From: Mya arenaria
Taxonomy: Eukaryota; Mollusca; Bivalvia; Myida; Myidae
Assembly: GCF_026914265.1 (NCBI RefSeq)
Contig: NC_069124.1
Span: forward strand, 6,908,213-6,972,212
DNA length: 64,000 bases
Direction: 5' to 3'
The position numbers and the translations under genes were made by a program. The notes under the pieces are model-generated. The model saw nothing but the letters and a program-made list of their open reading frames with translations. It was not told the origin of the DNA and did no database searches. This document shows, one piece after another, positions 16,770-35,832 of the stretch (position 1 is the first letter of the stretch; each line of letters begins with the position of its first letter).

Positions 16770-17820
16770 TTATTTCCTCGTGTTCGGACTATCTATTGTA
16801 TGGACAGATTTTAAAATTACTTGTCACATGTTTTTTACATACCAAGACGACGTGTACGTGGGACGGCGTGCATGGCCCCTGTCCCTATCTCTAAGGTCAA
16901 GGACATATTTAGTGTTGTTTACTACTATTGAATGTTGCATATAAGGACATAGAATGTAGGTGGTCGTGTCCGGGCTGAAACTTTCTATTGTATCGACATA
17001 TTTTAAAATAACTTGTCACATGTGTTTGCCATACCAAGACGACGTGTCGCGTGCACGACATGTGTCCTTATCTCTGAGGTCAAAGCCTGACTAAGTGATT
17101 ACTATGTAATTCTGAATATAAGAACCAAGAGTTTTAAGTGTACGTGTCCAGGCTGTAACTTTCTCTTGCATCGACATATTTAAAAAAAAATTGCAACATG
17201 TGTTCGACATATCAAGACGACGTTTCGCATGAACGACTCTTGTCCTTAACCACTCTTGTTTACTTTAGAATGCTACATATAAGAACATAGAGTATAGGTG
17301 GTCGTGTCCGGGCTGTAACTTCCTCTTGTGTGGACGGATTTTAAAATAATTTGAAACATGCGTTCGACATATCAAGACAACTTGTCGCGTGCAAGACCCT
17401 TGTCTCTTCCTCTAAGGTAAAGGTAACACTTAGGGTGTGTTCACTATGGAATGCCGCAAATAAGGCATATCAAAACGATGTGTCACGTGCACGACCCGTG
17501 TTCCTAATCACAATTACTATGAAAAACTACATATAAGGACACAGACTAAAGGTGGTCATATCTGGGTTGTAACCTTTTCTTGTATGGGCAGACTTTACAA
17601 TAACTTGCCACATGTGTTTAACATACCAAGACGACGTGTAGCATGCAAGACAGGTTTCCCTACCTCTAAGGGCAACATCACACTTATTTTAATAAAAAAC
17701 AACATGCCATATGTGTTCAACATTCCAAGTTGACGCGTTACGTGCCCGACCTCTTTCACACGTGTCGACATATTCTTAAATAACTTGCCACATGCATTTA
17801 CCAAATACATGGAACGAGTG
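16770..17820. repeat. Diverged second array of the 181-bp satellite family
   Basis: Units repeat 'tggtcgtgtccgggctgtaa', 'tggacagattttaaaat', 'ataccaagacgacgtg' and 'tataaggacatagagtatag' in the same order as the array at 1,690-4,430. Units here are much more diverged and vary in length, with some truncated at the right end (17,600-17,800). Confidence 0.85.
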
Positions 17821-18787
17821 ATTGTGTCACGATGTGCTCATTTATGTTGGCAAAACTTATAACCATTAATCATTACTTAAGAACTAAAATTTTGCTTTCT
17901 ATCGGAAAATCTATGATTTATGTTTAAAGCATTTGGATCCAACTGATATTGAGTACTCTCTGTAAAAATGTAAATCTTAAAAATATCGACCAGACTGATA
18001 TATCAACGTAATTAATACTAGAACGTGCTTGTAATGGAGTAATTTCTTTTAGGTATTTCGAACCATGACGAGGTGTTACGTCGTTTATTAGATTGAGTGA
18101 AAATATTTTCGACAGACGGGGTTCAGGAAGCTCAAGATAAAGAAATTTAATACAACAAGCACCATGAACAGCTTATGTCGCGAACGATACTCCTTTCTGT
18201 AATGTTTAATATCTGTTTCAGGGGTGAAATATAAAAAAAGTATATAGCAATGTTTAATTTAAGTCTGATTATCTCTTTTAAACTAAATCGTATTTACATG
18301 AAGGTTCATTTAACATTTTTCTAATGCTGCATGAAAGAAAAGTCCGGGAAATAACCGCTTGCTTGATTTTAAAGAACATGAACACTATTACGAAGTCGTC
18401 AAAAGAAAATATATGTTATGATAAAAAAAAACACATCCACGACGGGGTAAAACCAGATTATAATATAGACTTCTTAATAATCATAACAAAATTTAAATTA
18501 ACATTTACAATTGACTCAATCACGGCGGGTTATGTTCCGTATCATGCGCCAGTGACAAACATCGGTCCATTTCTTTAATTGCATAAATGAAAAATGATTG
18601 ATAAGAGAAATTAAGTCCAAATATTAAAGTTAAAATCACTTGTCACACTTGTCAAAAACATATTCTGAAGGTTCGTCACGTACGGGATAGGTTAAGCTTT
18701 GCTTATTGACTTAATTGCTGTACATTGTATATGGTTCCAAAGCCTTTACTTGTCACCCAATACTGACAGGTTCTCAATATTTTATTT
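17821..18787. other. Intergenic sequence upstream of gene A
   Basis: AT-rich. I see no conserved coding block. An 84-codon plus ORF at 18,324-18,578 has no recognisable content and is treated as chance. Confidence 0.45.
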
Positions 18788-18793
18788 TATAAT
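18788..18793 (+). promoter_or_regulatory. TATA-like box upstream of gene A
   Basis: TATAAT about 90 bp before the ATG. The position agrees with clearer TATA boxes before paralogues C, B and D, although this copy is weaker. Confidence 0.35.
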
Positions 18794-18877
18794 TATTAAA
18801 CGATTTATTCGTACATAATTCGACCGACACAGCTATTTAAGTGAATATCAAATGCGTATATCAAAAAACAATTCAAC

Positions 18878-19412
18878 ATGTCGTTAGAAAGAGAGTTAGA
18901 ATACAGTTTGGGTAAAGAACACATTCCAAGGTACAACCACATAGCCAAGTGTGCTACATGGATTGATGAAAAATCAACATTCTTTTTGCGTAAACTGTAT
19001 ATTGGGGAAACGTCTGTGCCAATAGAATTTGGAGATGTCACGATGGTGTTCCAACCAAAATTTATTTTGAAGGAAATAGAGAGTTTATTTGGCCCTCTTC
19101 AAAAACGACCGGATGAACTATTAACTGAATATGATACTGCGCCGCAGGAAACAAACGAATTTCAGCCGAAAATAAGTGTTACGTATTCCCAAGACAAAAA
19201 CACCGGAGATGATGGGTATGTCGTAAAAGCCGAAAATGAAGACAACATGAGAGTCAGAGTAGTGAGTGAGAAAAAAATTCAAGAGGCATTGGGTTCAATC
19301 CTTGAAAAAATTGTGTTAAAGCAATTCGTGGTCAAATTCAGCAGAATAAAGCAAACGGTTAATGAGAAACAACTAGGGCAAGGACTTGCCGACAAGAACA
19401 GTTATTCGATAG
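18878..19412 (+). CDS. Paralogue A exon 1 (N-terminal domain)
   Basis: ATG to a TCGATAG/GTAAGA donor; 178 codons plus one base. The exon ends in KNSYSIG-type text, exactly as in paralogue B. Confidence 0.8.
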
Positions 19413-20879
19413 GTAAGATAGTTCTCATGGTGTTCAGATTTCAGTATTGCATAAAATTATCATCTTCATTTTAAAAAATGAGGTTTAGTTATACATGTTG
19501 AAGTAAGAAGGAATAGTTTAACCATCTAAAAAGCGAGTTATAAACAAATAATTGAGACACAACTGAAATAAAATATATAGCTTTGAAAAAAAAAAGAAAT
19601 TCAATACTAGTTATTTACTGATCATATTCTTGTATTTAGAGATGAATAAACTGAATGCATTCGAACGAGAGAGCCTAGTGGACACAATACGTGAGGGACA
19701 AGCGCTTTTAAGGAGGTTTGGCCACTACGAAGCACAAATCAACAGTAGTCCCTCATCGACGGATGAAAAAGTATTTCGGCTTTCCTTTTACAATATATTT
19801 GATATTAAACTGATATATTGATGTTCTATGAGCACTTGTGACAGGTGAATCTTAATATATTATTTCAATCACAATGAACATCAAGAAAAATTATAATGAC
19901 CTTATAGTTGTTGTGTATTGCTACGTTCCAGTAACATGACAAGTCTACTTTTCAGATTTTAGACGCAGTATTCGGCGTAGACGGGAATGTCAAGGGCTGT
20001 GGATTCAGGGACGGACAACTACAAATACATGTGCATAAACCTAGTATACCAAGCGAAAGGCAAAGAATAAAAAGTGAACTGACAAACGTTCTGCAGAATT
20101 TAAAAATCAACAGCGTGGTTGTTTTTGGCGATTACGACATCACCCCTTTTTCGGGATCCCAAGTTGGAGATAAAGCTGAGAACATTTTGGGTAAAACAGG
20201 AACGCTTGGTGGTTTTGCTCAAATAGAAGGTCATCTTCCTCAAAGTGAAAGCAAACTTTGTGCTCTCTTTGCGAGACATTTTGCAGATCCCGATGAAGAC
20301 AACGAAGAACCTCCAGTACAAATATTTCATCAAAGTGGTAACAAAACAAAGCTTGGAGTGGTTCATCGAGGAAATGAAAGAAGCAAATATGATATTTCTG
20401 CTGTAGCAGTTGTATCTGAGGTCGAAAACAACAAATTCAAAACTTCTGAGGGCCTATATTCACCCAGCCAACTATGCCTTTACGAACATGATCAACTGGC
20501 AAATCTTGAGGAACTACAAGTCTACATTTGGGCAAATGGAGAGGCGACTCCACGACGAGGAAAGATCGCAATTCCGTACTATCGCCTTAGTTCAATCGAT
20601 GGTCATTACGTGTTGATTGAGAACATTTGTGAGTGGGATAGAGAAACCAACGCGCTTGTGAGAAAGAGACTGTGTGAATCTGGTCATAGCGGGGCTATTT
20701 TCTGTTCCGACGATCCGAACAGAAAATTTGTCACTGTTTATTCAATGCTTGAAGGTATGTGGAACTACAAAGAAGTGGAAAAAGATGCCTCTCACAAAGG
20801 CATTTACATGTCGTTTGCCGTCTGCAAAGGGTTGGAGGATTTGGGCAATAAACTTGGCGCCGATATCAAGCTTTGTTAG
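18878..20879 (+). CDS. Paralogue A: uncharacterised protein with trypsin-like (His-Asp-Ser) C-terminal fold, 529 aa
   Basis: Three exons (18878-19412, 19640-19770, 19956-20879) join in frame (phases 1 and 0), 530 codons including TAG. I do not recognise the family. The N-terminal part (residues 1-178) is charged, with IPRYNHIAKCATWIDEK and VPIEFGDVTM as conserved blocks. Exon 2 encodes a helix (TIREGQALLRRF). The C-terminal part (from about 223) reads like a chymotrypsin-fold peptidase: GTLGGF (as in 'GTLG-' first strands), CALFARHFADPDED (candidate His330), SKYDISAVAVV (candidate Asp368) and CESGHSGAIFC (candidate Ser467, replacing the usual GxSG). No signal peptide or membrane segment is visible, so it is probably intracellular. 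The triad is inference from motif order and spacing. The ATG is chosen because paralogues B-D align from nearby. Confidence 0.8.
19640..19770 (+). CDS. Paralogue A exon 2 (linker helix)
   Basis: TATTTAG/AGATGA to GAAAAA/GTATTT, 131 nt, the same length as the equivalent exon of B. Encodes EMNKLNAFERESLVDTIREG and on. Confidence 0.8.
19956..20879 (+). CDS. Paralogue A exon 3 (protease-fold domain)
   Basis: TTTTCAG/ATTTTA to TAG, 924 nt, identical in length to exon 3 of B. It contains all the candidate catalytic motifs. Confidence 0.82.
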   Translation: MLDAVFGVDGNVKGCGFRDGQLQIHVHKPSIPSERQRIKSELTNVLQNLKINSVVVFGDYDITPFSGSQVGDKAENILGKTGTLGGFAQIEGHLPQSESKLCALFARHFADPDEDNEEPPVQIFHQSGNKTKLGVVHRGNERSKYDISAVAVVSEVENNKFKTSEGLYSPSQLCLYEHDQLANLEELQVYIWANGEATPRRGKIAIPYYRLSSIDGHYVLIENICEWDRETNALVRKRLCESGHSGAIFCSDDPNRKFVTVYSMLEGMWNYKEVEKDASHKGIYMSFAVCKGLEDLGNKLGADIKLC

Positions 20880-21615
20880 TCGTTACCTATGAAGACAAGT
20901 GTAACTCCACCCCAACTTTCATGTTTTGTATAATCACATGTTTTGTCCATGTCAATATACATCTATGTATGTATGTATGTTTGGTGTGATGTATAATTTA
21001 TGGTTACTAATAGACATTCTGTACCTAGCACTCGATCTGCAAGGTTTAGATTTGTATTACTTGTTCACCAAGATTTAGACAAGCTATCGTGGCTTAAGTT
21101 CTTAAATGAACTTTCGTCTCTGCTATATAATACTGTCACGCAGTCTGGCTTATTAATCCACTGGATTAATGAATATACGATACACCAGATGTGTGTCCAT
21201 TTGTCAATACACCACTTACTTCTAATTAGCTCCCGACGGGATTTCGTATATTTATGTATTCGGTGAATTATAAGCCAGACTGCGTGTAACCGAGTTTTCG
21301 ATCCGTATATAGCGGTACTTCTACGGTCTCGTTATAGAGCTAGCTCTATATCGACGCGATAGGGTGTCCTCCTGCAGAGCAAGAGGTCGTGGTTTCGATC
21401 CCCAATATATGCACATAACAACTCATGCAGTCTGTTTCATTTATGCAGTCTATTACACTCATTTGAACCAAAAGGTGGGCCATATTTACTCACACTGCGA
21501 CAATGTTGGTGTATCACACACTCATTTGGGCTCTTTTGAAAATAGTAGTTGTATTCAGCTGAAGATGCGTGTGTTTGGAATGATGTGTTTATAGGTAGCA
21601 AAAAAATCTAATAAC
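20880..21615. other. Insertion-rich 3' flank of gene A
   Basis: Copy B's 3' flank (from about 30,700: 'gcggacagcat', then 'tttttgtgtcag') resumes matching A's flank only at about 21,628, so roughly 700 bp here is extra. It contains a tatg microsatellite (20,960-20,982), a short inverted-end element (21,137-21,286) and, near 21,370-21,405, text resembling a tRNA B box (ggtttcgatcc), possibly a SINE relic. Confidence 0.5.
21137..21286. mobile_element. Short inverted-repeat element, 150 bp
   Basis: Seventeen-base ends cacgcagtctggcttat (21,137-21,153) and its exact reverse complement (21,270-21,286). No coding content; probably a MITE, superfamily unknown. Confidence 0.65.
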
Positions 21616-21924
21616 AAAAGGTATCATGGCGGACAGCATATAATTGAAAAGAAATCACTTTGTGGAAAATACTTGATCGAATAAAGAAAGTGACGACGAG
21701 TTGAGTTGCTAGCCAGACCGAAGATAAACATTTTTGTGTCAGAAACTAAGATGTTTTGTTTAGTTTTGCGTCACTGAATCATTTAATTTGCATAAGCCCT
21801 TCTATTTTCCGACTTAATAATGAAAAAGTGAAGCAAAAATAATTAATGCCTTTCTGCGCGAAAGTCGCTTTAATAACTGCGCGAAAGTCGCTTTAATAAC
21901 AAGCGTTGTTTAATCACTGTAACC

Positions 21925-22075
21925 TTTAAGGACCCACCAGTCATTTAACGTTTATTCGTTTTCAGCAATGAAATACACGGTTACAATCTAGTAGTCAGTA
22001 ATTGATATTATTTAGTAAGTAGTTTGAGGTTTATCACTCAAAATGTATGTTTGTTATACATGTACATGTGAATGT
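21925..22075. repeat. Dispersed repeat, copy 1
   Basis: About 150 bp from 'ggacccaccagtcattt' through 'acacggttacaat' and 'gtttatcactcaaa' to 'tgtttgttatacatgt'. The same sequence lies in reverse orientation at about 26,637-26,795. Its ends do not show clear inverted repeats. Confidence 0.7.
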
Positions 22076-22437
22076 CTTGTTATAAATACGAGTGCCACTT
22101 TAAACAACGGTAGAACGGAGTTACTCATAAGAACAATAAAACAGTTGAACGTAAACAATTTGTATTCATAATGTGACCAAATCCGTTGTAAGTGTACAAA
22201 CAATGCGGTAAAGATGAAAACAAAAGAGTAGATCAAGTAGATGCAGCAGGTTCATCCTGGATTTGAAATCACAAACCATTCGAATTCAAAACCTTTAAAT
22301 ATTGAATAAAGCAAATTGTCTGAGATGGTTAATAAGTATGCATTAATTCACTGTGGTGTATCAATCAAATGTAATAAGGCATGTTACAATGGGTTTGCAC
22401 TTCCCAATTGTATGCAATTTGACCTTCAGGGCAAATC

Positions 22438-23935
22438 CTTGGTCGCGGTAGAATCCTTGATCGTATGCTACGCGTTAGAATCCTTGATCGTTGGTTACGT
22501 GGTAGAATCTTTGGTCGTTGGTTACGCGGTATAATACTTGGTCGTTGGTTACGCGGTAGAATCCTTGGTCGATGGTTACGCGGTAGAATCCTTGGTCGTT
22601 GGTTATGCGGTAGAATCCTCGGTCGTTGATTACGCGGTAGAATACTTGGCCGATGATTACGCGATAGAATCCTCGGTCGTTGATTACGCGGTAGAATACT
22701 TGGCCAATGATTACGCGATAGAATCCTTGGTCGATGGTTACGCGGTGGAATCCTTGGTTGATGGTTACGCGGTAGAATCCTTGGGAGATGGTTACGCGGT
22801 GGAATCCTTGGTCGTTGGTTACGCGGTAGAATCCTTGGTTGATGGTTACGTGGTGGAATCCTTGGTTGATGGTTACGCGGTAGATTCCTTGGGAGATGGT
22901 TACGTGATGGAATCCTTGGTTGATGGTTACGCGGTAGAATCCTTGGTTGATGGTTACGTGGTGGAATCCTTGGTCGTTGGTTACGCGGTAGAATCCTTGG
23001 TTGATGGTTACGTGGTGGAATCCTTGGTCGATGGTTACGCGGTAGAATCCTTGGTCGTTGGTTACGCGGTAGAATCCTTGGTCGTTGGTTACGCGGTAGA
23101 ATCCTTGGTCGCGGTAGAATCCTTGGTCGATGGTTACGCGGTAGTATCCTTGGTCAATGGTTACGCGGTAGAATCCTTGGCTGATGGTTACGCGATAAAA
23201 TCTTTGGTCGATGGTTACGCGGTAGAATCCTTGGTCGTTGGTTACGCGGTAGAATCCTTGGTCTATGGTAACGCGGTAAATCCTTGGTTAATGGTTACGC
23301 GATAGAATCCTTGGTCGTTGGTTACGCGGTAGAATACTTGGTCGATGGTTACGCGATAGAATCCTTGGGAGATGGTAATGCGGTAGAATCCTTGGTCGTT
23401 TGTTACGCAGTAGAATCCTCGGTCGTTGATTATGCGGTAGAATACTTGGCCGATGGTTACGCGATAGAATCCTTGGGAGATGGTTATGCGGTAGAATCCT
23501 TGGTCGTTGGTTACGCGGTAGAACCCCTGGTCGTTGGTTACGCGGTAGAATACTTGGTCGATGGTTACGCGATAGAATCCTTGGGAGATGGTTATGCGAT
23601 ATAATCCTTGGTCGTTGGTTACGCGATAGAATCCTTGGTCTATGGTAACGCGGTAGAATCATTGGTCGATGGTTACGCGATAGAATCCTTGGTCGTTGGT
23701 TACGCGGTAGAATACTTGGTCGATGGTTACGCGATAGATTCCTTGGGAGATGGTTATGCGGTAGAATCCTTGTTCGTTGGTTACGCGGTAGAATCCTTGG
23801 TCTATGGTTACGCGGTAGAATCCTTGGTTGATGGTTACGCGGTAGAATCCTTGGTCGTTGATTACGCGATAGAATCCTTGGTCGTTGGTTACGTTGTAGA
23901 ATCCTTGGTCGATGGATACGGGGTAGAACTGTAAT
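22438..23935. repeat. 27-bp minisatellite, about 55 units
   Basis: Units of the form 'gtagaatccttggtcgatgg' plus 'ttacgcg', with variants at fixed positions (gtt/gat, cctt/actt, gtc/ggaga, gcg/gtg). The 27-bp length is a multiple of 3, so long ORFs run through it: 255 codons on + reading VESLVDGYA repeats and 234 codons on - reading ILPRNHRPR repeats. No start context, flanking domain or splice context supports a gene, and stops and frame jumps between units break it into several ORFs. Treated as non-coding repeat. Confidence 0.93.
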
Positions 23936-24369
23936 TTTAGATCTCGTTGATTTCAACTCTCGCTCTCTAACTAGCACGTAAAAAAGAACCAATGGAGTCT
24001 CTGAAACCGAGATGCATTTTGTAAACTAGGGTCGACGGTTTTCTATGCATCTAAAATCCGTCATTAAATATCGGTCTAGGAAGTGTTTCTACTACGTACT
24101 TACGATGTGTGACGTTTATTTTAAAATTTTACTAACTTAAAATAGACCTGATTAATGATCAAAATTTAATACTGATCATTAAGATTTATTATTGAAGTGG
24201 GTCAAAACTTAATGTTACACCGGATAAGGTTGTTTCGTAATAGGAGCCTAATAACTGTCCATCGGTCTATGCGTGTAATGGCGTTATCGCAAATTGGTTC
24301 ATTTAGTCCATATTTGTTTTCAATAAATATATAAAGTAGTCAGAAACATAAAAGTGTTATTGTTTATTA

Positions 24370-24800
24370 ATCTTTTACTACTCAAAGTCTTATATATGTG
24401 TCTCCAATGATCATCTAGTGTCCCAAACTCATTGAAGCTGACACCTCCACAGGTATAAGGAAACTGGGCTTTATCAGAAGGAACATGACATATTGAGTCT
24501 AGAAGGTTTAGGTAGCTAGTTACAGTAGACCTTTTAGTGAGGTCGGGACTGAAAAGGCAGCCTCTAAAAAGACTTAAATGGTTCACTGGTACAGACATGG
24601 AGGCGTGCCACTCTCTTTGTTACAAGGAACTACATATCTAGAACTTCGTATGCTTAATAAGCTCTTCTGTAAATACAAAGGTCATATGGATATCAGCAGT
24701 GAAATGTTACAGAAGTAGGGCAAAAGTAGCCTCAAGTTCTACAAAGGTCGCATCTACTGTGATATATTTAAAAGTACTGCTAGAAACTGGAATTAGATAA
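24370..24800 (-). pseudogene. Decayed coding sequence, minus strand, copy 1 of 3
   Basis: Read on the minus strand, conceptual segments such as VDATFVELEA, ADIHMTFVFT, SPDLTKRSTVTSYLNLLDSI and CHVPSDKAQFPYTCGGVSFN line up with copies 2 and 3. I do not recognise the protein. Stops and frame changes separate the segments. It is followed to its right by copy 2 rather than by a protease-like gene. Confidence 0.6.
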
Positions 24801-25059
24801 AAGAATAAGACGAAACTCCTTTCATTCAACCAGCTTTAAAAAACACAAGCAAGTTGTAAATAAAACACAACACTTAAACATCCCCGAGTATTGCGCATAC
24901 ACATAAATATAGCAGCTGAGATCATCAAATGTACAAATGAAACAAATTGATATGTCAAAGCTATGAAGTGGCGGTACGCATTCTTTGTAAACACTTGAAC
25001 TGTGGTAAAAGATAATAAATACTGATTAACTGATAAATAAAAAGATAAAGGCAATTGAG

Positions 25060-25690
25060 TTCAAATCGTCCATGTTTTCCCTTCAGACTATCTATAAAAT
25101 ACATGGCCAGATACTTGCTGCTTTTGAACACATTAAATAATAAGGATAACCGTCTCAAATGGCCTCTAGTGGTCCAAGTTCATTGGTGGTGTCACCTTCA
25201 AGGGCAATATGAAACTGGACATCATCACAAGGAACCTAAACAATTGATACCATAAATAGTGAGTAGCTACTAACACTAGTCTAATGAAGTCAGGACTGGA
25301 ATATGAAGACTCACAAACGGCTTAGATAGAAACAGAGCCGTTCCGCACTCTGTGTGAAAGGGCCCTACAGATACAGAACCACAATAAGTCTTATATATTT
25401 TATATATAAATATGCTATGAGCTCCTGGTAGGAATCCGAAACAACAGTGCAGGAAATAGTTGCGGCTCACTATGCCCTTTCGTAAATACAAAGGTATTAT
25501 GAATATCAGCATTGAAGGCTACAGAAATAAATGCGACAGTTGGATGAGGACCAGCTTCTACAAATATCACATCAACTGTGAGGTATTCAAAACTACTCTT
25601 CTTCCCTAGAACGGTCAGAAACTGGAATGAGATTAAATAGTTCGCCGAATTTCCTTTTTTTTATTCAACAATTCAAAGAAACGCGAAAGA
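25060..25690 (-). pseudogene. Decayed coding sequence, minus strand, copy 2 of 3
   Basis: Minus-strand segments LTVDVIFVEAGPHPTVAFIS, EPQLFPALLFRIPTRSS and KPFVSLHIPVLTSLD align with copies 1 and 3, with several stops between. Its 5' end faces pseudogene C head to head across about 270 bp. Confidence 0.6.
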
Positions 25691-25866
25691 TTATGAAGGT
25701 TTTAAACAGTTTAACATTTTTTGACCTAGGACTTATTAGCAGTTCAGTATATTAGCTGTTATCATTGTTTATCTAAATTGCGGATAAAAGAAATTTCAGA
25801 TAAAAGCATGACATAACTTAATTGAAATGCGAAATTGATGATTACTGTTTAACTGATAGATAGCGA

Positions 25867-25874
25867 TATAAAAC
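25867..25874 (+). promoter_or_regulatory. TATA box upstream of pseudogene C
   Basis: TATAAAAC 92 bp before the ATG-equivalent of C, within a block shared with the B upstream region (ttaactgata ... tataaa). Suggests C was copied with its promoter. Confidence 0.45.
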
Positions 25875-25958
25875 CTATATTTAAACCTAAATCATATATG
25901 GTAAACTTGTATTTGTTGCAGGCAATCAATTATACATAAAGAACTTGCCTATTTCAAT

Positions 25959-27330
25959 ATGGCATTGCCGGATTTCTTTGTGAGCATGGAATACATCTCG
26001 ATGTACAAATACATTGCTCAATACTAAGTATACTACAGAGCTGGATGGAAAAGCTCCGTTCTTTTTACTCAATCTGTATCTTGAAGATACGTTTGTGCCA
26101 TTAGGTTTCGGAACTGTTATCATTCCATTACATCCCAAATCATTTCAAAAGCAAACGAGTTAACTCGTTTAGAATGATACACATATAATCATCATTTGTA
26201 TTGAACTATGTATTGTATTAAACCAAGATATGAATGTAAAAAGTAGAAGTGTTGAAATGAGTTGATAAAGTTTAAATATTTATTACAAAAATACGGTGTT
26301 CCAAAATTGTTCTCGTCATAACATTTCGAGGATTGGTTTGTTTAGAAATGAACAAACTGCGTCCTACTGACAGCGAGGACCTCTTAGACACCATGTGTGA
26401 AGGACAACCACTATTAACCAATAGTATGCCCTCCCCGAATAACGATAAAGTATTTAAGCTTTACTTTAACACTTATGCTACTCATAGTTGATACAATAAT
26501 AAAATAGAAATGTTGTCTAATAGTACCTGTAATATATTTAATATATTATGTAAGTTAGTTTTATTTCATCAGAATGAGTTTCAATAACCATCAGATAGAC
26601 GAAATTTTTTAAGTGACACTCTTATTCAAAATCAATACGTACACATGTATAACAAACATACTTTGAGTGATAAACCAATAACTTATTATCAAATAATGCA
26701 TTTATGGAAAATATTGATTACTGATAAAAATATTGTAACCGTGTACTTATTAGCTGAAAACGCAAAAAATATCAAATGATTGGTGGGTTCATAAGTGCGA
26801 TCTACTATCGTCTCGGGTAGAAATACCGTGTTTCCTGCACTTGTCCTTCAAAATGAACTCGGTATTCTTCATAAAAACCATTGTTTTTGACACTTATTCA
26901 TCCTTTTTGGTAAATTAAAACAATTGTATTAACTGTGGTAAATCATATTTGGGAGTAGGAGTGCTTCTTTAAGGGTTGTGGATTCAGGGATGGAAAACTA
27001 CAAATACATGTATATATGCCTAGTTTGCAACGCGAAAGGCAGCGAATAACAGCGAAATGACAAATGTTTTGCAGAATAAGACCGACAATTTTGTTATATT
27101 TGGCGATTACGAAAACGCCCATTTTTCAGGGTGAAAATTGGAGATTATTTAAAAAGTGAAAGCCCACTTTGCGAGATAGATTCCGAAGAGGACAACGGAA
27201 AAACTCCAGTATATGTATTTGATCGAAGTGGTAACAAAACAACGCTTGGATTGGCTCATCGAGGAAACGGAAGAAGCAAATATTACATATGTTGGTGTAG
27301 TTGTAGCAGAGGTCGAAAACAGACAATTTA
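25959..27330 (+). pseudogene. Paralogue C: broken copy of the protease-fold gene
   Basis: Exon 1 remnant 25,959-26,160 starts MALPDFFVSMEYISMYKYIA and meets a TAA at 26,025-26,027, then continues in another frame (agagctggatggaaaagctcc). The rest of exon 1 is deleted. Exon 2 remnant lies at about 26,345-26,455 (aaatgaacaaactg onward). Exon 3 remnant lies at about 26,975-27,330, covering GCGFRDG to the candidate catalytic His/Asp region with large deletions, and stops before the serine motif. A dispersed repeat sits in its second intron. Clearly dead. Confidence 0.85.
26637..26795. repeat. Dispersed repeat, copy 2 (inverted), in pseudogene C intron
   Basis: Reverse complement matches 21,925-22,075 over about 150 bp (acccaccaatcattt, ttttcagctaataa, acacggttacaat, gtttatcactcaaa, tttgttatacatg). 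Confidence 0.7.
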
Positions 27331-27894
27331 AATAAAATTTAAAGAGACTCGCCCATGTTTGGAAAAATGCATCTTTTTTGACGAAATAAGGTATGGCAAT
27401 TAATTACGATTGTGCAAACTGAGATACTGATGGCTCGAACCCTTCAACAAATGTTGATATATGCTCGAATATTGTCTTTTAAGTCAACAATTTTGAATAG
27501 CGCCAGCAACTCTTTCAACAAAAGGCTTAAAGGATAAATCATCCCTCAAGTTATGAAAGAGTCCTCGTGGGCGAGCATTTTGGTACAAAGAGTAAGATTT
27601 GGAATGTCTATTCACCGGAAAGTAACTTTTATTAATGTAATCAAACGCACGAATGAAGGAATCACAATGAGAGTTAACTTCCTTAAAATCATTATTGAAA
27701 TGACTGCAATCCGTTACAGATCAATACGCAGGTTTTAAAAATATTTTTTTATGCATGCGGATAGTTTCCAAGAAACAAATGCAACATAATATAGAACCCA
27801 AAACACAACAGAAAAGAAAAAAAGGATCAGCCACGATATCATGATCCTGGAAAAGTGACTGGTTACTGAGCTAAAACCCTAGAAAATGTAAGGT
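27331..27894. other. Sequence replacing the 3' part of pseudogene C
   Basis: Homology to exon 3 stops at about 27,330. A possible inverted pair 'gactcgccca' (27,347) and 'tgggcgag' (27,569) hints at an inserted element of about 230 bp. No gene is seen. Confidence 0.4.
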
Positions 27895-28425
27895 CATTAA
27901 TGTTTCCCCCTCAGACTTCCTATGAAATACATGGCCAGTTCCTTGCTGCTGCTGAACACATTTAATATCATTTCAAATGGCCTCTTATTTTCCAAGTTGA
28001 CGGTGTCACCTCCAAAAGCAATAGGAAACTGGACATCATCAGAATAGTTGTTTCCAGAAACTACGGGTAACTAGTAACACAAGGCTAATGAAGTCAGGAC
28101 TGGAATATGCAGCCTCACAAAAGGCTTAGATATGTGCTCTTGAACAGATACCGCTCTCTTGTGAAAGAGCCCTACTGATCTACAACCGCAGGCAATCTGA
28201 TTCATATTCTGGGAGCTCTGGGTAGGAGTTCGATACGATAGCGCAGGAAATAGTTGCGGCACACTGCTCTTCCGTATATACAAAAGTATATGGATATCAA
28301 CAGAGAATGCCATAGAAATGCAATATCAAGTCGAGGAGAAGCCTCAAGTTCTACAAAGATCGCATCAACTGTGAGGTTTACAAAACTTATTTCTTCCCAA
28401 CAAATGACATGAAAAAACATTTTAT
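27895..28425 (-). pseudogene. Decayed coding sequence, minus strand, copy 3 of 3
   Basis: The best preserved C-terminus of the three reads on the minus strand SDDVQFPIAFGGDTVNLENK followed by RPFEMILNVFSSSKELAMYF and ends IGSLRGKH-stop. Upstream segments LTVDAIFVELEASP and SSVPQLFPALSYRTPTQSS match copy 2. Stops and frame changes remain. It lies head to head with gene B across about 260 bp. Confidence 0.6.
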
Positions 28426-28591
28426 TTTTTTGGACTCCGGATCAATAAGCTTAAAATTAAATATAGCAGCTGATGTTATTTCTTTTTTAATTGTGATTAT
28501 ACTAGAATGACGTAGCATTTGAATACTTCGGTATCTAAATAGTTTTTTTGTAATTCACGTGAGGGCTACTACTCAACTGATAAAACAGCCA

Positions 28592-28599
28592 TATAAATA
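28592..28599 (+). promoter_or_regulatory. TATA box upstream of gene B
   Basis: TATAAATA 91 bp before the B ATG, at the same place as the TATA motifs of C and D. Confidence 0.5.
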
Positions 28600-28682
28600 C
28601 CAAGTGTATTGTCGAAATCAGATACAAAGTTGATTTATAGGCACATAGTTAAACATCAAGCATTTGTCCGGTATATTTCAAT

Positions 28683-29187
28683 ATGGCGTTGAACTCTTTC
28701 ATTTTGAGCATGGAATACATCCCGAGGTACAAATACATAGCTAAATATGCTACAGAGCTTGATGGAAAAGCTACCTTCTTTTTACGCAGACTGTATCCTA
28801 AAGATACGTTTGTACCATTAGAATTTGGAGATGTTACCATTTCATTACATTCGGAATGTCTTTCAAAAGGAAAAGAGTGCCTTAATGGTCATCTCCGAAA
28901 AATATCAAATGAAGTATTAAATGAAAATCGTTCTACATTGCTTGAGAGGAAATGTCAGCCACAGATAAGTGTTGGTGAGTATGTCGTTAAGGTAAAAAAC
29001 GAAGAAGACATGGAAGTCTCATTGAAAAATATGGAACAGCTTCAAGACGCGTTGGAATTACTCCTTGAAAAGTTTGTTTTTAAGCAATTCATGGTCAAAT
29101 TTAACAAGATATGTGTACTAAAGCCGAAGCTGAATGAGCAACAATTTGGCCAGGAAACTGATGACGACAACAACAGTTATTCGATAG
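28683..29187 (+). CDS. Paralogue B exon 1 (N-terminal domain)
   Basis: ATG to TCGATAG/GTAAAC; 168 codons plus one base. Ends in NNSYSIG like paralogue A. Confidence 0.8.
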
Positions 29188-30651
29188 GTAAACGACCTGG
29201 TATATATTCATTTAGACTAATACACATATAATCACTTTGTGTTTTGAAATAGGTAATCTGAAGTAAACCAAGATATAAATGTGAAAGTTAGAAGTATTGA
29301 AATAAGTTGATACAATTTAATTACTTATAACGAGAAATACGTTCATTCTTTTTAATAAGATTCCAATGATTTTTGTTCAGAAATAAACAATCTGAATGCG
29401 GTTGACAGAGAAAACCTCATGGATACCATACGTGAGGGCCAAGCGCTGTTAAGGAGGTTTGACAATGCCAGCATTCAGACCTGCAGTATGCACACCTCGA
29501 TGAACGATGAAGTATTTCGGCTCTACTTAAACATTTACACTACTAATATTTGATATAATAAAGCAATAAGAATGTTTGTTACAGTATCTGTAATACATTA
29601 TACATATATTTATATTATTCGAGTTAGTTTTCTTTATCATAATGAGCACCAGTATGGTTCAGAATGAACATATAGTATTTCAGTTTGTGTTACTAAGTTC
29701 CAGTTACATGGCAGGTCTACTTTTCAGATTATAGACGCTGTTTTTGGCGTAGACAAGAAGGTTAAAGGATGCGGCTTCAGAGACGGACAACTCCAAATAC
29801 ATGTACAGATGCCTAGTCTGAAATGCGAAAGACAACGAATAAAAAGCGAAATGTCAGATGTTCTAAAGACTTTCAAGATCGACCATATGGTGATATTTGG
29901 CGATTACGACATCACCCCTTTTTCGGGATCCAAAGTTGGAGATAAAGCTGAGAACATTTTGGGTAGAACAGGAACGCTTGGAGGTTTTGCTCGAATAGAA
30001 GGTCATCTTTCACTAAGTGAATGCCAACTTTGTGCTCTCTTTGCGAGACATTTTGCAGATCCCGATGAGGACAACGAAGAGCCTCCAGTATATATATTTG
30101 ATCAAAGTGGTAACAAAACTGCCATTGGAGTGGTTCATCGAGGAAACGGAAAAAACAAATATGATATTTCTGCTGTAGCAGTTGTATCTGAGGTCGGAAA
30201 CAACAAATTCAAAACTTCTGAGGGCCTATATTCACCCAGCCAACTATGCCTTTTCGAACATGATCAACTGGCAAAATTTGAGGAGCTACAAGTCTACATT
30301 TGGGCAAATGGAGAAGCGACTCCACGACGAGGAAAGATCACAATTCCGTACTATCGCTGTCGTGCAATGGACGGTCATTACGTCTTGATTGAGGACCTTT
30401 GTGTGTGGGACAGAGAAACCAACGCGCTTGTGAGAAAGAGACTGTGTGAATCTGGTCATAGCGGGGCTATATTCTGTTCCGACGATCCGAATGGAAAATC
30501 TATCAATGTGTATTCAATGCTTGTAGGTATGTGGAACTATAAAGAAGTGGATAATGATGCCTCACACAAAGGCGTGTACATGACGTTTGCCGTCTGCAAA
30601 GGATTGGAAGACTTGAGCGATAAACTTGGCGCCGATATCAAGCTTTGTTAG
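28683..30651 (+). CDS. Paralogue B: uncharacterised protein with trypsin-like (His-Asp-Ser) C-terminal fold, 519 aa
   Basis: Exons 28683-29187, 29381-29511 and 29728-30651 join in frame (phases 1 and 0), 520 codons with TAG. Same architecture as paralogue A: N-terminal domain (1-168; EYIPRYKYIAKYATELDGK, VPLEFGDVTI), a 44-residue exon-2 helix (TIREGQALLRRF), then the protease-like part with TGTLGGFARIEGH, CALFARHFADPDED (candidate His320), NKYDISAVAVV (candidate Asp358) and ESGHSGAIFCSDDP (candidate Ser457). Exon 3 is almost the same as in A even at DNA level, while exon 1 differs widely and is 30 nt shorter. No signal peptide or membrane helix. AATAAA lies only 16 nt after the stop. Function unknown; the protease fold is an inference. 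Confidence 0.82.
29381..29511 (+). CDS. Paralogue B exon 2 (linker helix)
   Basis: TTGTTCAG/AAATAA to GATGAA/GTATTT, 131 nt. Encodes EINNLNAVDRENLMDTIREG and on. A read-on past the donor meets an in-frame stop. Confidence 0.8.
29728..30651 (+). CDS. Paralogue B exon 3 (protease-fold domain)
   Basis: TTTTCAG/ATTATA to TAG, 924 nt, matching A base for base over long stretches. Confidence 0.84.
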   Translation: MIDAVFGVDKKVKGCGFRDGQLQIHVQMPSLKCERQRIKSEMSDVLKTFKIDHMVIFGDYDITPFSGSKVGDKAENILGRTGTLGGFARIEGHLSLSECQLCALFARHFADPDEDNEEPPVYIFDQSGNKTAIGVVHRGNGKNKYDISAVAVVSEVGNNKFKTSEGLYSPSQLCLFEHDQLAKFEELQVYIWANGEATPRRGKITIPYYRCRAMDGHYVLIEDLCVWDRETNALVRKRLCESGHSGAIFCSDDPNGKSINVYSMLVGMWNYKEVDNDASHKGVYMTFAVCKGLEDLSDKLGADIKLC

Positions 30652-30666
30652 TCTTTACATATTTGA

Positions 30667-30672
30667 AATAAA
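30667..30672 (+). terminator. Candidate polyadenylation signal of gene B
   Basis: AATAAA 16 nt downstream of the TAG, giving a very short 3' UTR if used. Confidence 0.4.
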
Positions 30673-30689
30673 CGAGCCAGATTTTATCC

Positions 30690-31613
30690 ATCCGAAAGTT
30701 ATGATTGCGGACAGCATGATACGACAAGAAAATAATAAAATTTTGCATAAAATATGTAAAAAGAAGTAAAGAAAGTAAGAAGGACGAACTGCTTTGCTAG
30801 CCGTACCGATGATATATGATATATACTGGTTACGTATCATTTTTGTGTCAGAGAGTAAGAAATAGTTGTTTTCGTTTTGTTTTACGAAACCGTTAAATCG
30901 GCATTAGCCCTGCTGCAGGCTTAATTGTCAAGTAAAGCAAAAAGTGACTTTCGGCGGTAATATCATTCTCCGAGCAAGCGATGCTGAACATTTCTACAAT
31001 TTTGCCGATATGTTGTATTCATATATCAAAACTAAATTATTTCTTTCTTAGTGTTGATGCAAATGTCTTTCTACTTGTAACTGATGTCTGAAAATGTGTC
31101 AATCTGTTACGATAAAATTTATCTTTAACACGATGTAAATAAATTAAAATCGATATATCTATTCTGTGATGTGATAAATAACAAATAAATATACCTATAA
31201 TATATCTTTTACTCTATCAATAGACACCATCAATGGGAAGAAAAGCGGAATCTTACAATGAACAATCATTTTCGAAAGATCTGTAGTGGCTCGCAACGTG
31301 TGATATAGGACTGACATTTTTTTTCATTCTACGTAAATATTTTAATAAGTTTGAAAGTAAACTATGTACTTAAAATTAAGGTTGGTCGGATGTTTACCAT
31401 CAATGTTTTAAAATATCACATATTACCTTTGTTGGGGTGTAAGATTCAAAACATATAATTTCCACACATGGGCCAACATTTAAACAAGTTTCATCGTTAA
31501 ATTATTGATTACATTTTAACACCACAATAAAAACCGCTTAAATGTTTAAGAAACACGAAATATGATGATGGCATTAGATACCTACTTCTAGTTTCAAAAG
31601 AATATGACGCTGA
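30690..31613. other. 3' flank of gene B
   Basis: The first part (about 30,700-30,960) matches the flank of gene A at about 21,628-21,890, showing that the duplicated block extends past the gene. The rest is AT-rich with nothing recognised. Confidence 0.5.
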
Positions 31614-32945
31614 CAATATAAGGGAACCTGGTCAAATATCCCCCAAGTCAAATAGCACCCACACTTTTGGTCAAATAGCCCCCACTGCGAAAAAATTGGT
31701 CAAAACGCCCCCAATTCGGTCAAAACGCCCCCATTTTGGTCAAATAGCTCCCACTTCTTTTTTAATTTGAAAATATATTAGAAGGTAAGTTTTAATATTT
31801 TTAAGATATTTGAATGTAAGTTGTAATATTTTTAAGATATTTGAATGTATATTTGAAGGTAAGTGGTAATATTTTTAAGATATGTGTATATATATCCGCC
31901 TGGTCTCAGAACAACGCTTGCAGCGTAACCAGAAGGCAGCGTACAGGTCCATGTAGGGACCTGTGTTCGCTGCATGGGACATGTACAGATCTGGCGATCT
32001 GACCGACACCGGCCTGCTAAAAAAGATTTCCTCTACATATGTGCACACCGTCCCAAACACAAATGAAACAGAAGATTAGTGACAGCTGCATAAGGACCTT
32101 TTTACTATGTATTAACATATAATAGGCATTCTCCATCTATGTTAATGTATATTGTGTGGTACAATGAGAATGCATAATACATTTTACCATACATTGTTAA
32201 TGTGTATTTAAAAGATGTGAATAATGTGAAAATTATTTCAATTTTTTTTTTTATATATATATTCTTGTTCCTCAATTTGGAAATTATAAATGGAAACCAG
32301 TTATATAAGAATGCTGACCAAAATTTTTTATATTCAAGTTCAAAAATTGATGTTTTAAGCATTTCGGTTTTAGCAATAAAATGTTAATTTTCGAACGGAA
32401 ATATGAAAATCTGCAATCTGATCTTTTGTCAGCAATCTTTTAGCACTGGTTTGCAGATATTTACGCAAAAATTTACTCTTTCCAAGACAAAAAAATAAAA
32501 AAAGTTTTCAAAACGGTAAATCTGTGAGAGTGCAGCTTTAAGTTTGATGCTTAATCAATATCAAAATAAAGAATAACACAAAACACAAAAAAAACTTATG
32601 ACTTAGAAAGTTTAACATTTAAAATGTAGATTTGATGTAATAATATATTATTTATAAGATATATTTTAAAACGTTTGTTATTCTTACTTGGTAAAATTTT
32701 CAGATTTATTAATATACAAATAATGTTAATTGCACTTAATTTTGTAAAATTAAAGTTTAAAAAGTGTTTTGGAATAACATAAATATGCAAACATACATAT
32801 AAAAAAATAATAAAAAGTGGGGGCGTTTTGGGGGACAATTTGACCAATTTTAAAATGTGAGTGGGGGCTATTTGACCAAAATGGGGGCTTTTTGACTTGG
32901 GGGCTATTTGACTTGGGGGCTATTTGACTAGGAAGCCAATATAAG
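31614..32945. mobile_element. Foldback element with 9-bp target duplication (Mutator-like), 1,314 bp
   Basis: CAATATAAG flanks both sides (31,614-31,622 and 32,937-32,945). Inside, the left end ggaacctggtcaaat is the near reverse complement of the right end atttgactaggaagc. Both ends carry arrays of '(g)gtcaaatagcccccac' and 'ggtcaaaacgcccccat' motifs, about 130 bp on each side. A 9-bp duplication with long inverted ends points to Mutator-like elements. There is no transposase. The interior has a short tandem repeat (31,775-31,885, ttttaagatatttgaatgta) and a GC-richer captured-looking block (31,895-32,060). Confidence 0.88.
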
Positions 32946-33229
32946 ACACACATTTATACTCTTAGCATCATTTCAACAATTGATTGTGTAAAAAGGCTAA
33001 ACAAAAAGAGATAAAACATAAACTATATGTGAAACTAAACTGCAGGATCCGAAGTATATTATCCGCGCAAGTTTTCACCACAAAAGTACACGTGCACATC
33101 AATACCGTAATAAAATTTGTCAACAATAAACATTGCGCGTCTTCCTGTACATAAGTGGTTAGTTCGAATGTGTTTTCATGAATTGCGTTATGCCTAAGGT
33201 AATTCAGAGACTATTCTCCTTTCACTTGT

Positions 33230-33880
33230 AAATTAACATGAAATCGACGGGACAGTCCGCCATTTGCGTCTACGAAATATACACATCTTTGTCTCAAAGA
33301 CGCAACTACTGAGTCTCTTAATTCTGCATTTTGGAGATTGTAACATCGCAGCACTTACTTCGTCTCCGCCAATACATGTTGGGCTCATACATGGGCTCTT
33401 TGAGGGCCATGGCAAAACTTTAACGTTGTTTTGCTCCACGAATAAATTCGTTAACATTGCCGTTTTCGGCGTCAGTATCATTGCTGCAGCACGAGTCAAC
33501 AATGTTGTTGCATGGACGGGACAACGGCAGTCGACATAATGTAGTGATGAACTGCCCTAGCTCCCGGTACGTAATCCAGAAATACTAAACGTGGTATTTC
33601 ATTATACCTACAGCCCATACAATAGTAGTTTGACAGCCAAACAAGTTCGTTGATTGACAAACGAATTTGCAAATCTTTTCTTGCGACGCCGATACACACA
33701 CTGACTTCGATCATTAAAGTCATGAAAAATTGTACTCTTTGGAGAAGGCAATTCGTTGCTAAAGTCATAATGGCCTTTTCCGGTGTTATGCAGCCAATTG
33801 TCTACGGTTACGGCGGTGCAATATTGTCAATGTGCACCACATTACGGACGTCTGACGAGCACTCTTACTTCACGTAGACG
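33230..33880 (-). mobile_element. Decayed Tc1/mariner-type transposase fragment
   Basis: Read on the minus strand, QNNVKVLPWPSKSPCMSP matches the Tc1-family motif 'NN(I/V)-VLPWPARSPDLSPIEH'. Just upstream, YIMSTAVVPSMQQH resembles 'YIDEILRPVVLPFLQQH', followed by a broken LFQQDNARPH equivalent. Frame changes and stops interrupt it in several places and the region after SP no longer reads IEH. No terminal inverted repeats were found. It lies just before fragment D. Confidence 0.7.
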
Positions 33881-33948
33881 TCGTCTAAATGTTCACGCAC
33901 TATATTGTATTACAAGTTTAAAATTCGTGTTTTTGTCTTTAATTATAC

Positions 33949-33956
33949 TATAAAAT
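33949..33956 (+). promoter_or_regulatory. TATA box upstream of fragment D
   Basis: TATAAAAT 85 bp before the ATG-equivalent, as in copies B and C. Confidence 0.4.
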
Positions 33957-34033
33957 ATAATAATAATTATAGTACAGTGTATATACAGGCAATACTTAAT
34001 TAGACAAGAAGTACTTGTCCGATTCATTTCAAT

Positions 34034-34253
34034 ATGGTATGGCACGATTTCATTGTGAGCATTGAATACATCTCGAGGTACAAATACATAGCCCAAAATA
34101 CTACAGAGCTTGATGGAAAAGATACCACCTTTTTACATAAACTGTATTCTGCAGAAAAACTTGTGCCATTTACATCCGGATTGTTACAATGTCCATTCCA
34201 CGTTCTAAAATTATTTCATAATCAGAGGAGGGTCTCGATGGCCCTTTCTTGAA
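34034..34253 (+). pseudogene. Paralogue D: first-exon fragment of the protease-fold gene
   Basis: Reads VSIEYISRYKYIAQNTTELD and FLHKLYSAEKLVPF, aligning with residues 8-50 of B. After the equivalent of EFGDVT the frame shifts and it ends at a stop at 34,250-34,252. DNA similarity to A continues to about 34,250 (ggccctttcttgaaac). No exon 2 or exon 3 follows. A gene remnant, though a short transcript cannot be excluded. Confidence 0.75.
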
Positions 34254-34855
34254 ACAGTGGTGGACTTTTCACCACTGTCAATAAATAGTTTCATACAAAT
34301 TGCTTAATGCGTGCGTCCAACTGCACCGACATAGTATCTCCGTCTATTCTTTAAAGCATGCCGTCATGATAAAACAAACACACCTACACTAAAGTTCGTG
34401 TCCAATTATAATGCTGTTTAGAAACATTGGATGCTAGAAGGATGAATGGAAACCTGATTTCGGGAGTTATTTCAGGAGCATCGTCCTGACGGATGAATGC
34501 CCTTAAAATGACAAACTTTTGTGACAGTGGGTTCAAAATAGTATGCCTTCAAATGGAAAAATCACGATAATTGCGGTAACATTTCGGAACGGATGCCAAT
34601 AATGATGTTTTGAAACAGGTTGATTTTTTTTAGATAATACTATATCATTTTAATGGTTTATAACATTCTTATTTCTTGTGCAATGCATATACTATTCAAA
34701 TTCTTCGAATTTTAAATGAAACTGCATATTGTTTGCTTTCAAAAATAGTACAAGAGAAATTGAACTTTTATTACACATCTTAACAACAGACATATAACAT
34801 TGTACGTAGATGTATTTATACTACGTACAAAGAAGGACGAAACGTCTTTAAATTA
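34254..34855. other. Intergenic between fragment D and the DHHC gene
   Basis: AT-rich, no coding or repeat structure recognised. Confidence 0.5.
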
Positions 34856-34861
34856 TTTATT
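34856..34861 (-). terminator. Candidate polyadenylation signal of the DHHC gene
   Basis: AATAAA on the minus strand, about 130 bp after the stop codon. Confidence 0.4.
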
Positions 34862-34989
34862 TTTTAAGTAATCAGGCTGGAAAAATTGCATTAGCAGTTA
34901 TATGACAAACAAACACAGCATCTCTTTGACAATAAAATAATTTCATATGAAGATAGTTTCAGATCTTATTAAATTCAACTTGCATCTTC

Positions 34990-35832
34990 TCACTTACTTT
35001 GGGAACCCCAAGACACTGGAAAGATGAAATTTAGTAACCAATATTTGCCGAAGACTGAATGTAAGTTGTAACGGGTTGTGTTAACATTCGATATTGCTCG
35101 CCGTTTCTTCAATTCGTGAAGCGTCATTCCATTAACCGCTAGAAACATCTGGACAAGAAATACCCGGGCACCTTCAACAGCGAAAAATACATCGATGTAA
35201 CAAAACAAGATAGCCAGACTGTTGAATCCGGAAATGCAGCCAAATATCCATCGTATAAATGTAACTGGTAGAAATAAGTCGAACCACGAAGCCGTTGTGG
35301 ACACGTACATCAAAAGATATAGGTATTTCGCGCATAAGTATCCGCATACAATACTGACAATTGTGGTGTAGAAAGCGCCAACTATGAAGTACTTCTGATT
35401 CTTCAGTCCAATGCAGTTTCCAGTCAGATAGCAATGGTGGTCTCGTTTAAGAATACAAACGTTGCATATCTTGCAATGATGGGTCCGAAATGGCTTGTTT
35501 ATCCTGCAGATCTCACAGTATCGTCTTGGGTACATTTTCGCTGTATCATATTCGGGCAATAGTTGTCCTCTTAAATGTTGCCCATTTTCTGTTTCGCCAC
35601 AGAAGTCTCTTTGCAGCCAGGTACTTTCAAAAACGTGTAAATATAAATCGTAGGTCGAAGAATACGTCATTGCCATTATCCAGTTTATTACAACTTGGAA
35701 AACTGTGAAGACGACGAAACCTTGAAATAATATCCGAGTCGGAAGATCGGAGTAGAGAACAGGTGTTATTTGATTCACACACATATACAGTTGGGCAGAA
35801 AGCAGAAGTGCAACCACTGATCGCCCTGTAAC
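34990..35832 (-). CDS. DHHC palmitoyltransferase, last exon (280 aa; ZDHHC22/24-like)
   Basis: DHHC enzymes attach palmitate to cytosolic cysteines at Golgi, ER or plasma membranes. The cysteine-rich domain reads YCEICRINKPFRTHHCKICN then VCILKRDHHCYLTGNCIG, with the active Cys at residue 134 of this exon. Hydrophobic segments lie before it (ILFQGFVVFTVFQVVINWIM) and after it (FIVGAFYTTIVSIVCGYL; FIRWIFGCISGFNSLAILFC). MTLHELKK occupies the TTxE position. The HHCYLTGNCIG wording resembles ZDHHC22 and ZDHHC24, but I cannot choose between them. The exon starts after TGATTTCAG; the open frame has no ATG before a GTG, so at least one upstream exon is missing and was not identified in 35,833-38,000. 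Confidence 0.88.
   Translation of the reverse strand, partial: VTGRSVVALLLSAQLYMCVNQITPVLYSDLPTRILFQGFVVFTVFQVVINWIMAMTYSSTYDLYLHVFESTWLQRDFCGETENGQHLRGQLLPEYDTAKMYPRRYCEICRINKPFRTHHCKICNVCILKRDHHCYLTGNCIGLKNQKYFIVGAFYTTIVSIVCGYLCAKYLYLLMYVSTTASWFDLFLPVTFIRWIFGCISGFNSLAILFCYIDVFFAVEGARVFLVQMFLAVNGMTLHELKKRRAISNVNTTRYNLHSVFGKYWLLNFIFPVSWGSQSK

Follow-up and report, generated by a model that had tools for sequence, protein, structure and literature searches.

A genome-wide family of putative intracellular serine proteases related to NAL1 and Ssy5 in the bivalve Mya arenaria

A 64,000-nucleotide stretch of the Mya arenaria genome (RefSeq assembly GCF_026914265.1, contig NC_069124.1, positions 6,908,213 to 6,972,212 of the forward strand; hereafter the window) contains two intact genes, A and B, a pseudogene, C, and a gene fragment, D, that belong to one family. 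The products of A and B are probably intracellular PA-clan serine endopeptidases that are nearest to NAL1 and Ssy5 (peptidase family S64) and are regulated or aimed by an N-terminal domain. Taken on its own and as judged from sequence, the protease assignment is likely. An earlier interpretation of the same DNA from its letters alone (the sequence-only reading) had proposed a protease fold encoded by exon 3, and that proposal is supported by the invariance of a His-Asp-Ser triad among paralogs, by a chain of single-sequence searches leading to Peptidase_S64, and by the appearance of NAL1 as the top Protein Data Bank (PDB) match of two family profiles. To our knowledge, trypsin-like proteases that act inside cells are few, comprising NAL1 in plants, Ssy5 in yeast, and HtrA and FAM111 in animals.

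Results

Two intact genes with an invariant His-Asp-Ser triad

In the gene models, A and B each consist of three exons separated by GT-AG introns, with exons 2 (131 nt) and 3 (924 nt) of equal length in the two genes, and the product of A has 529 amino acids. C contains stops and deletions and can be recognised as far as about 27332, upstream of the Ser block, which was not found in the remnant (25950..27332). D is a piece of exon 1 only. All four copies are on the + strand. The description in the sequence-only reading of two intact genes with a common exon plan, one dead copy and one fragment in a single orientation is therefore accurate. Exon 3 of B is 82% identical to that of A, and no family row that covers the His, Asp and Ser blocks has lost them, a likeness greater than chance would produce.

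Conservation within exon 3 was counted over 77 matched open reading frames (ORFs), which collapse to 52 distinct rows, all paralogs from the one genome; 12 of the 52 are partial, and gaps were set aside. Exon 3 of A encodes 10 His, 18 Asp and 23 Ser residues, and exactly one of each is invariant. These are the three residues that had been proposed from the letters alone (Table 1), and their order is conserved among these same-genome paralogs. All 40 rows that cover the three positions read H, D and S, and the invariant columns of exon 3 across the family rows number 12 in total. In an alignment of 16 paralogs, chosen from the 30 loci found with A by setting aside near-duplicates, fragments and copies with stops, H108, D146 and S245 of exon 3 are among the invariant columns, as are T83-L84-G85-G86. 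Ahead of the Ser, 21 of 42 rows have Asp, 16 have His, four have Gln and one has Asn. The textbook GDSG is therefore also represented in the family, of which the GHSG of A and B is a variant form. A codon-pattern search for the Ser block, with a pattern that excluded the sites of A and B themselves, gave four places in the genome and was given no weight. A further invariant residue is the Cys at the end of exon 3 (residue 307, window 20874-20876; 33 of 33 covering rows), which directly precedes the stop codon in many members, though not in the member L058.

A chain of searches leads to NAL1 and peptidase family S64

On the sequence evidence, A is homologous to NAL1 and S64 proteases through linked family members, a transitive relationship in which each step is strong and which is invisible from A alone. 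In single-sequence searches of the genome, A found the locus L034 at an expectation value (E) of 2.0e-17, and L034 found the locus L036 at E 3.7e-8. The profile nearest to A (A1) also recovered L036 from a set of 384 ORFs, at 8.5e-17, and the alignment places the His, Asp and Ser residues in register. L036 in turn matches Peptidase_S64 at E 3.7e-7 (29.4 bits against a cut-off of 23.6), over only positions 585-659 of the 692 in the profile. L036 also matches Nal1_C and Trypsin_2, both under the cut-off (Trypsin_2, 19.3 bits against 27.6), as does L034 (Nal1_C, 21.2 bits against 26.1; Trypsin_2, 19.9 bits against 27.6). Across ten members scanned at E up to 0.1, Nal1_C was matched by four, Trypsin_2 by four, Peptidase_S64 by three, and no other family by any. 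A Pfam match of L030 to VPS13_M, which with 21.1 bits fell short of the cut-off of 50 and was taken as chance, reached E 1e-4, and the matches to Nal1_C and Trypsin_2 below cut-off are therefore not to be relied on alone. Two other Pfam matches and one of L013 to RAG2_PHD (E 0.17) were likewise dismissed.

When the profiles were run over the whole genome, S64 gave three matches, two of them over the cut-off (L036 and L038), and all three overlap places in the L034 match list. None of the four Nal1_C matches and none of the three Trypsin_2 matches in the genome exceeded the cut-off; two of the latter (E 0.3 and 0.5) coincide with places that L034 had found at E 0.004 and 0.001. In controls on 14 named genomes the Trypsin_2 profile was positive in 13, and the S64 and Nal1_C profiles in none. 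The Nal1_C profile also picked up, at E 0.41, the locus L035 (C6:62.63 Mb), which is missing from the L034 match list. Its two open frames on the - strand (1342-1947 and 2323-3261) contain GTLGGF, SCAHVL and QQGDSGAL blocks, and it is perhaps a further distant relative.

Two profiles of different composition were compared with the PDB. With profile A4, built from ten members including L036 to L038, the first nine of 12 matches are NARROW LEAF 1 (NAL1), at E 7.6e-6 to 7.7e-5, followed by DegS at 0.56. With profile A8, built from 13 members without L036 to L038, NAL1 accounts for nine of the 12 matches and for the top two, at E 0.087 to 1.2. For each profile, a TLG...RHV block and a GDSG block line up with NAL1 in two printed alignments. 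The sequence-only reading could not name the family. The nearest known proteins can now be named as NAL1 and Ssy5/S64, while A and B themselves match no library; having no match that reaches the curated cut-offs of Peptidase_S64, Nal1_C or Trypsin_2, they are not filed in those families. In other libraries, the single NCBIfam match over six proteins (A, E 0.19; B gave none) was taken as chance, and PADLOC gave no match over five proteins.

The N-terminal domain and predicted location

The domain encoded by exon 1 is, as far as sequence comparison can tell, common to the family and unrecognised in the libraries searched. No confident Pfam match was obtained for the exon-1 domains of A, B and seven other members; three of the seven (L034, L056 and L023) gave matches at E 0.02 to 0.13 that were taken as chance, and the other four gave none. 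An exon-1 profile had no match in the PDB. The AlphaFold2 model of exon 1, from a two-row alignment of A and B, has a predicted local distance difference test (pLDDT) score of 45.9 and gives a mere hint of helices and strands. A Death-fold reading of this domain was considered and found to be without support. The N-terminal domain, called new in the sequence-only reading, is thus unrecognised in Pfam and the PDB and is shared across the family rather than peculiar to A and B.

Eight exon-1 domains share 15-40% identity with the first member in their alignment, and exon 3 of 13 members shares 26-42% with that same member. These long-range identities favour a less conserved exon 1. Short-range rates of non-synonymous (dN) and synonymous (dS) substitution are mixed: for the L019/L023 pair, dN/dS is 0.51 in exon 1 against 0.28 in exon 3, and the L034/L047 pair has equal dN (0.52) in the two exons, with dS saturated. 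No candidate signal peptide or membrane helix is present in A or B, in which the highest hydrophobic mean over 19 residues is 1.04 and 0.75, respectively. This agrees with the intracellular assignment made from the letters alone, and the two products would be soluble proteins located inside the cell.

A family dispersed over the genome

The sequence-only reading had described a local family, a view that the genome-wide searches overturn. Single-protein searches of the 1.216-Gb genome gave 68 matches with exon 3 of A and 114 with the distant paralog L034, both counts being lower bounds. Pooling 52 of the former (E up to 0.00184) with 102 of the latter (E up to 2.4e-4) and joining neighbours yielded 102 stretches spread over 14 of the 18 contigs, a figure that is not a gene count and includes fragments, pseudogenes and near-identical pairs. 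Two pairs of loci, L016/L017 and L021/L022, encode identical proteins in opposite orientation. As judged by eye at 17 loci with upstream open frames, an exon-2-like frame (D-T-L-H-E-A-x-A-L-Y-x-R-S type motif) is present at 15 and an exon-1-like frame at 13. Neither was seen in the upstream stretches examined at L036 and L037. Relatives were not confirmed in prokaryotic or viral contigs, which were scanned with one or two short peptide patterns each, and three plasmid matches to L036 (E 3 to 7) were taken as chance. The family is not reported in the titles and abstract beginnings among the literature matches listed, a coverage that excludes most subscription journals.

Purifying selection, gene conversion and duplication

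Exon 3 is under purifying selection: of the 66 pairs that 12 sequences form, 36 were used, and their dN/dS has a median of 0.31 and a range of 0.21 to 0.53; the remaining pairs had dS outside 0.03-1.5 or undefined and were left out. When A is compared with B, dS amounts to 0.77 for exon 1, 1.26 for exon 2 and 0.63 for the opening part of exon 3, and falls to 0.15 in the protease part, where DNA identity is 82-98% per 100 bases; past the stop codon identity is 42%. The simplest reading is that a gene-conversion tract probably covers the protease part (window 20100-20880 versus 29870-30651). The contrast between exons 1 and 3 within the A/B pair is confounded as a result.

Second copies of window 17377-22376, 24524-29083, 29084-32148 and 32555-35692 are found at 99.8-100% identity elsewhere on contig C3, one part at about 8.616-8.628 Mb and the rest, inverted, at about 8.009-8.016 Mb. 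The break between the two parts falls exactly at window 29083/29084, within exon 1 of B, and the second copy of A has a one-base frameshift in exon 3. They represent either a recent duplication with inversion or an assembly duplicate.

Table 1. Coordinates in the window of the gene copies and of the candidate catalytic residues of A
Feature	Position	Strand	Description and basis
Copy A exon 1	18878..19412	+	Encodes N-terminal domain, unrecognised; gene model and similar exons in the family
Copy A exon 2	19640..19770	+	Short linker, D-T-I-R-E-G-Q-A-L-L-R-R type motif; gene model
Copy A exon 3	19956..20879	+	Small beta-beta-alpha-beta region, then putative NAL1/S64-like serine protease domain; gene model, paralog alignments, profile matches
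Candidate catalytic His330 of A (exon-3 residue 108)	20277..20279	+	Invariant in 45 of 45 covering rows
Candidate catalytic Asp368 of A (exon-3 residue 146)	20391..20393	+	Invariant in 43 of 43 covering rows
Candidate catalytic Ser467 of A (exon-3 residue 245, in GHSGA)	20688..20690	+	Invariant in 42 of 42 covering rows
Copy C	25950..27332	+	Pseudogene remnant: exons 1, 2 and first half of exon 3
Copy B exon 1	28683..29187	+	Gene model
Copy B exon 2	29381..29511	+	Gene model
Copy B exon 3	29728..30651	+	Putative protease
Copy D	about 33986..34230	+	Exon-1 fragment

Surroundings of the genes

The interval between A and C contains, at 22444-23928, a minisatellite whose 27-base unit is repeated about 55 times and in which both strands have long open frames. 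At 1745-4275 a 181-base unit is tandemly repeated 14 times, and related copies are found at 16788-17819, just upstream of A. Next to fragment D, on the - strand (34993-35838), lies an exon that encodes part of a DHHC palmitoyltransferase (PF01529, E 3.7e-29).

Discussion

Several results weigh against the assignment of A and B as active proteases. Neither protein has a Pfam match at E up to 10, A alone has no match in the PDB, and profile A1 found no protease there, its matches being six ATP synthase b chains (E 0.012-0.19) that were taken as chance. HHalign comparison with E. coli DegP, DegQ and DegS gave probabilities of 2.5% for A1 and 16.7% for A4. The AlphaFold2 model of exon 3, from a two-row alignment of A and B, has a pLDDT of 35.4, the first 60 residues, a beta-beta-alpha-beta piece, scoring 57-73. 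The rows over which the triad was counted come from related paralogs, all aligned to a single profile, and hence are not independent, and dN/dS between A and B is 0.53 in the protease part, not below that of exon 1 (0.42). Finally, both proteins carry GHSG, with His in place of the usual Asp before the Ser, and without that Asp the classical zymogen salt bridge could not form. The blank Pfam and PDB results for A and B, the NCBIfam and A1 matches attributable to chance and the poor exon-3 model are what would be seen if the fold lay outside the PA clan and the GTLGGF, ARHF, YDIS and GHSGA blocks merely resembled those of a protease. The chain to Peptidase_S64, the in-register alignment of two profiles with NAL1 as their top match and the pattern of triad invariance make this explanation very unlikely, and exon 3 would be expected to adopt a trypsin-like double beta-barrel. 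A pseudoenzyme, in which that fold is retained as a peptide-binding or scaffold module, would accommodate the GHSG of A and B and has a precedent in bacterial conflict systems, where trypsin domains in one effector position are reported to be nearly all catalytically inactive (PMC7159879). Yet the triad is unsubstituted in the 45, 43 and 42 rows covering its residues, the opposite of what a pseudoenzyme would lead one to expect, and exon 3 is under purifying selection; we consider this alternative quite unlikely.

Among named proteases, the family most resembles NAL1, a plant trypsin-like serine protease, and Ssy5, the protease of the yeast SPS sensor. NAL1 (Nal1_C, PF25819) is alike in its TLG...RHV and GDSGS blocks and is matched by the four members noted above, whereas the clam family is distinguished by its N-terminal domain, its three-exon plan, its expansion and the lack of any genome match over the Nal1_C cut-off. 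Ssy5 (Peptidase_S64, PF08192) shares the His-Asp-Ser order and an N-terminal part ahead of the protease; the distant members L036 and L038 pass the S64 cut-off, whereas A and B do not match, and its prodomain is likened to the exon-1 domain by position before the protease only. FAM111A and FAM111B, vertebrate trypsin-like proteases, work inside the cell and carry additional N-terminal domains, as is proposed for the family, although no FAM111 chain is present among the PDB matches of the A1, A4 and A8 profiles at E up to 10. In FAM111 proteins two ubiquitin-like domains precede the protease; the exon-1 domains of the clam family have no confident Pfam match. The triad of FAM111 is His385, Asp439 and Ser541, and FAM111A functions in DNA replication and antiviral defence (PMC9798293). 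Proteases of the HtrA type (DegP, DegQ, DegS; Trypsin_2, PF13365) align with the His and Asp regions of profile A4 in the E. coli set (hhalign P 0.0015, with the probability given above), and differ from A and B, for which the Pfam scan, blank throughout, gave no PDZ domain. Bacterial HtrA proteases are periplasmic or membrane-anchored.

We propose that the C-terminal part of exon 3 would be the protease, with His330, Asp368 and Ser467 as its triad, that exon 1 would form a separate domain, and that exon 2 would serve as a short conserved linker. By analogy with the Ssy5 prodomain, the N-terminal domain may sense a partner or restrain the protease, which upon release would cleave one or a few specific intracellular proteins. 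Ssy5 itself, with the triad H465, D545 and S640, is described as self-cleaved and as bound by its prodomain; only once the prodomain has been destroyed does Ssy5 cut transcription factors (PMC12958826). In maize, a TOPLESS-like corepressor is degraded by NAL1a (PMC12915138).

What such proteases would do in the clam can be framed in two ways. A role in defence or stress would be in keeping with the tandem copies, the pseudogenes, the probable gene conversion and an exon 1 that is less conserved at long range, and lineage-specific expansions of other immunity-type proteins (TRADD-N) are reported in bivalves (PMC8195603). In its full form, this would be a lineage-specific intracellular defence or surveillance repertoire of dozens of proteases with divergent N-terminal recognition domains, in which pathogens or damage trigger proteolysis of the NAL1/Ssy5 type. 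The defence role is conjectural, and we regard the full form as unlikely. The same protease could instead be a developmental or housekeeping regulator whose copy number reflects drift and assembly duplication rather than conflict with pathogens, a reading that is compatible with a regulated NAL1/S64-like protease and competes with the defence role only. Consistent with it, maize NAL1a acts in flowering (PMC12915138) and Ssy5 in amino-acid sensing (PMC12958826); several identical or near-identical copy pairs in the genome may be assembly duplicates; and the short-range comparison shows no faster exon 1 in all pairs. Against it, many divergent, clustered copies on many contigs, with pseudogenes among them, are more usual for defence families. 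We consider the regulator a real possibility, somewhat short of probable.

If a defence repertoire existed, it would be an animal counterpart, in logic, of NLR- or FAM111-type systems, built on another protease branch. About a hundred NAL1/S64-like stretches in one animal genome, with a common unrecognised N-terminal domain at the loci examined for it, would mean a large system of regulated proteolysis, and one that would escape the standard libraries, as the blank Pfam result for A and B illustrates.

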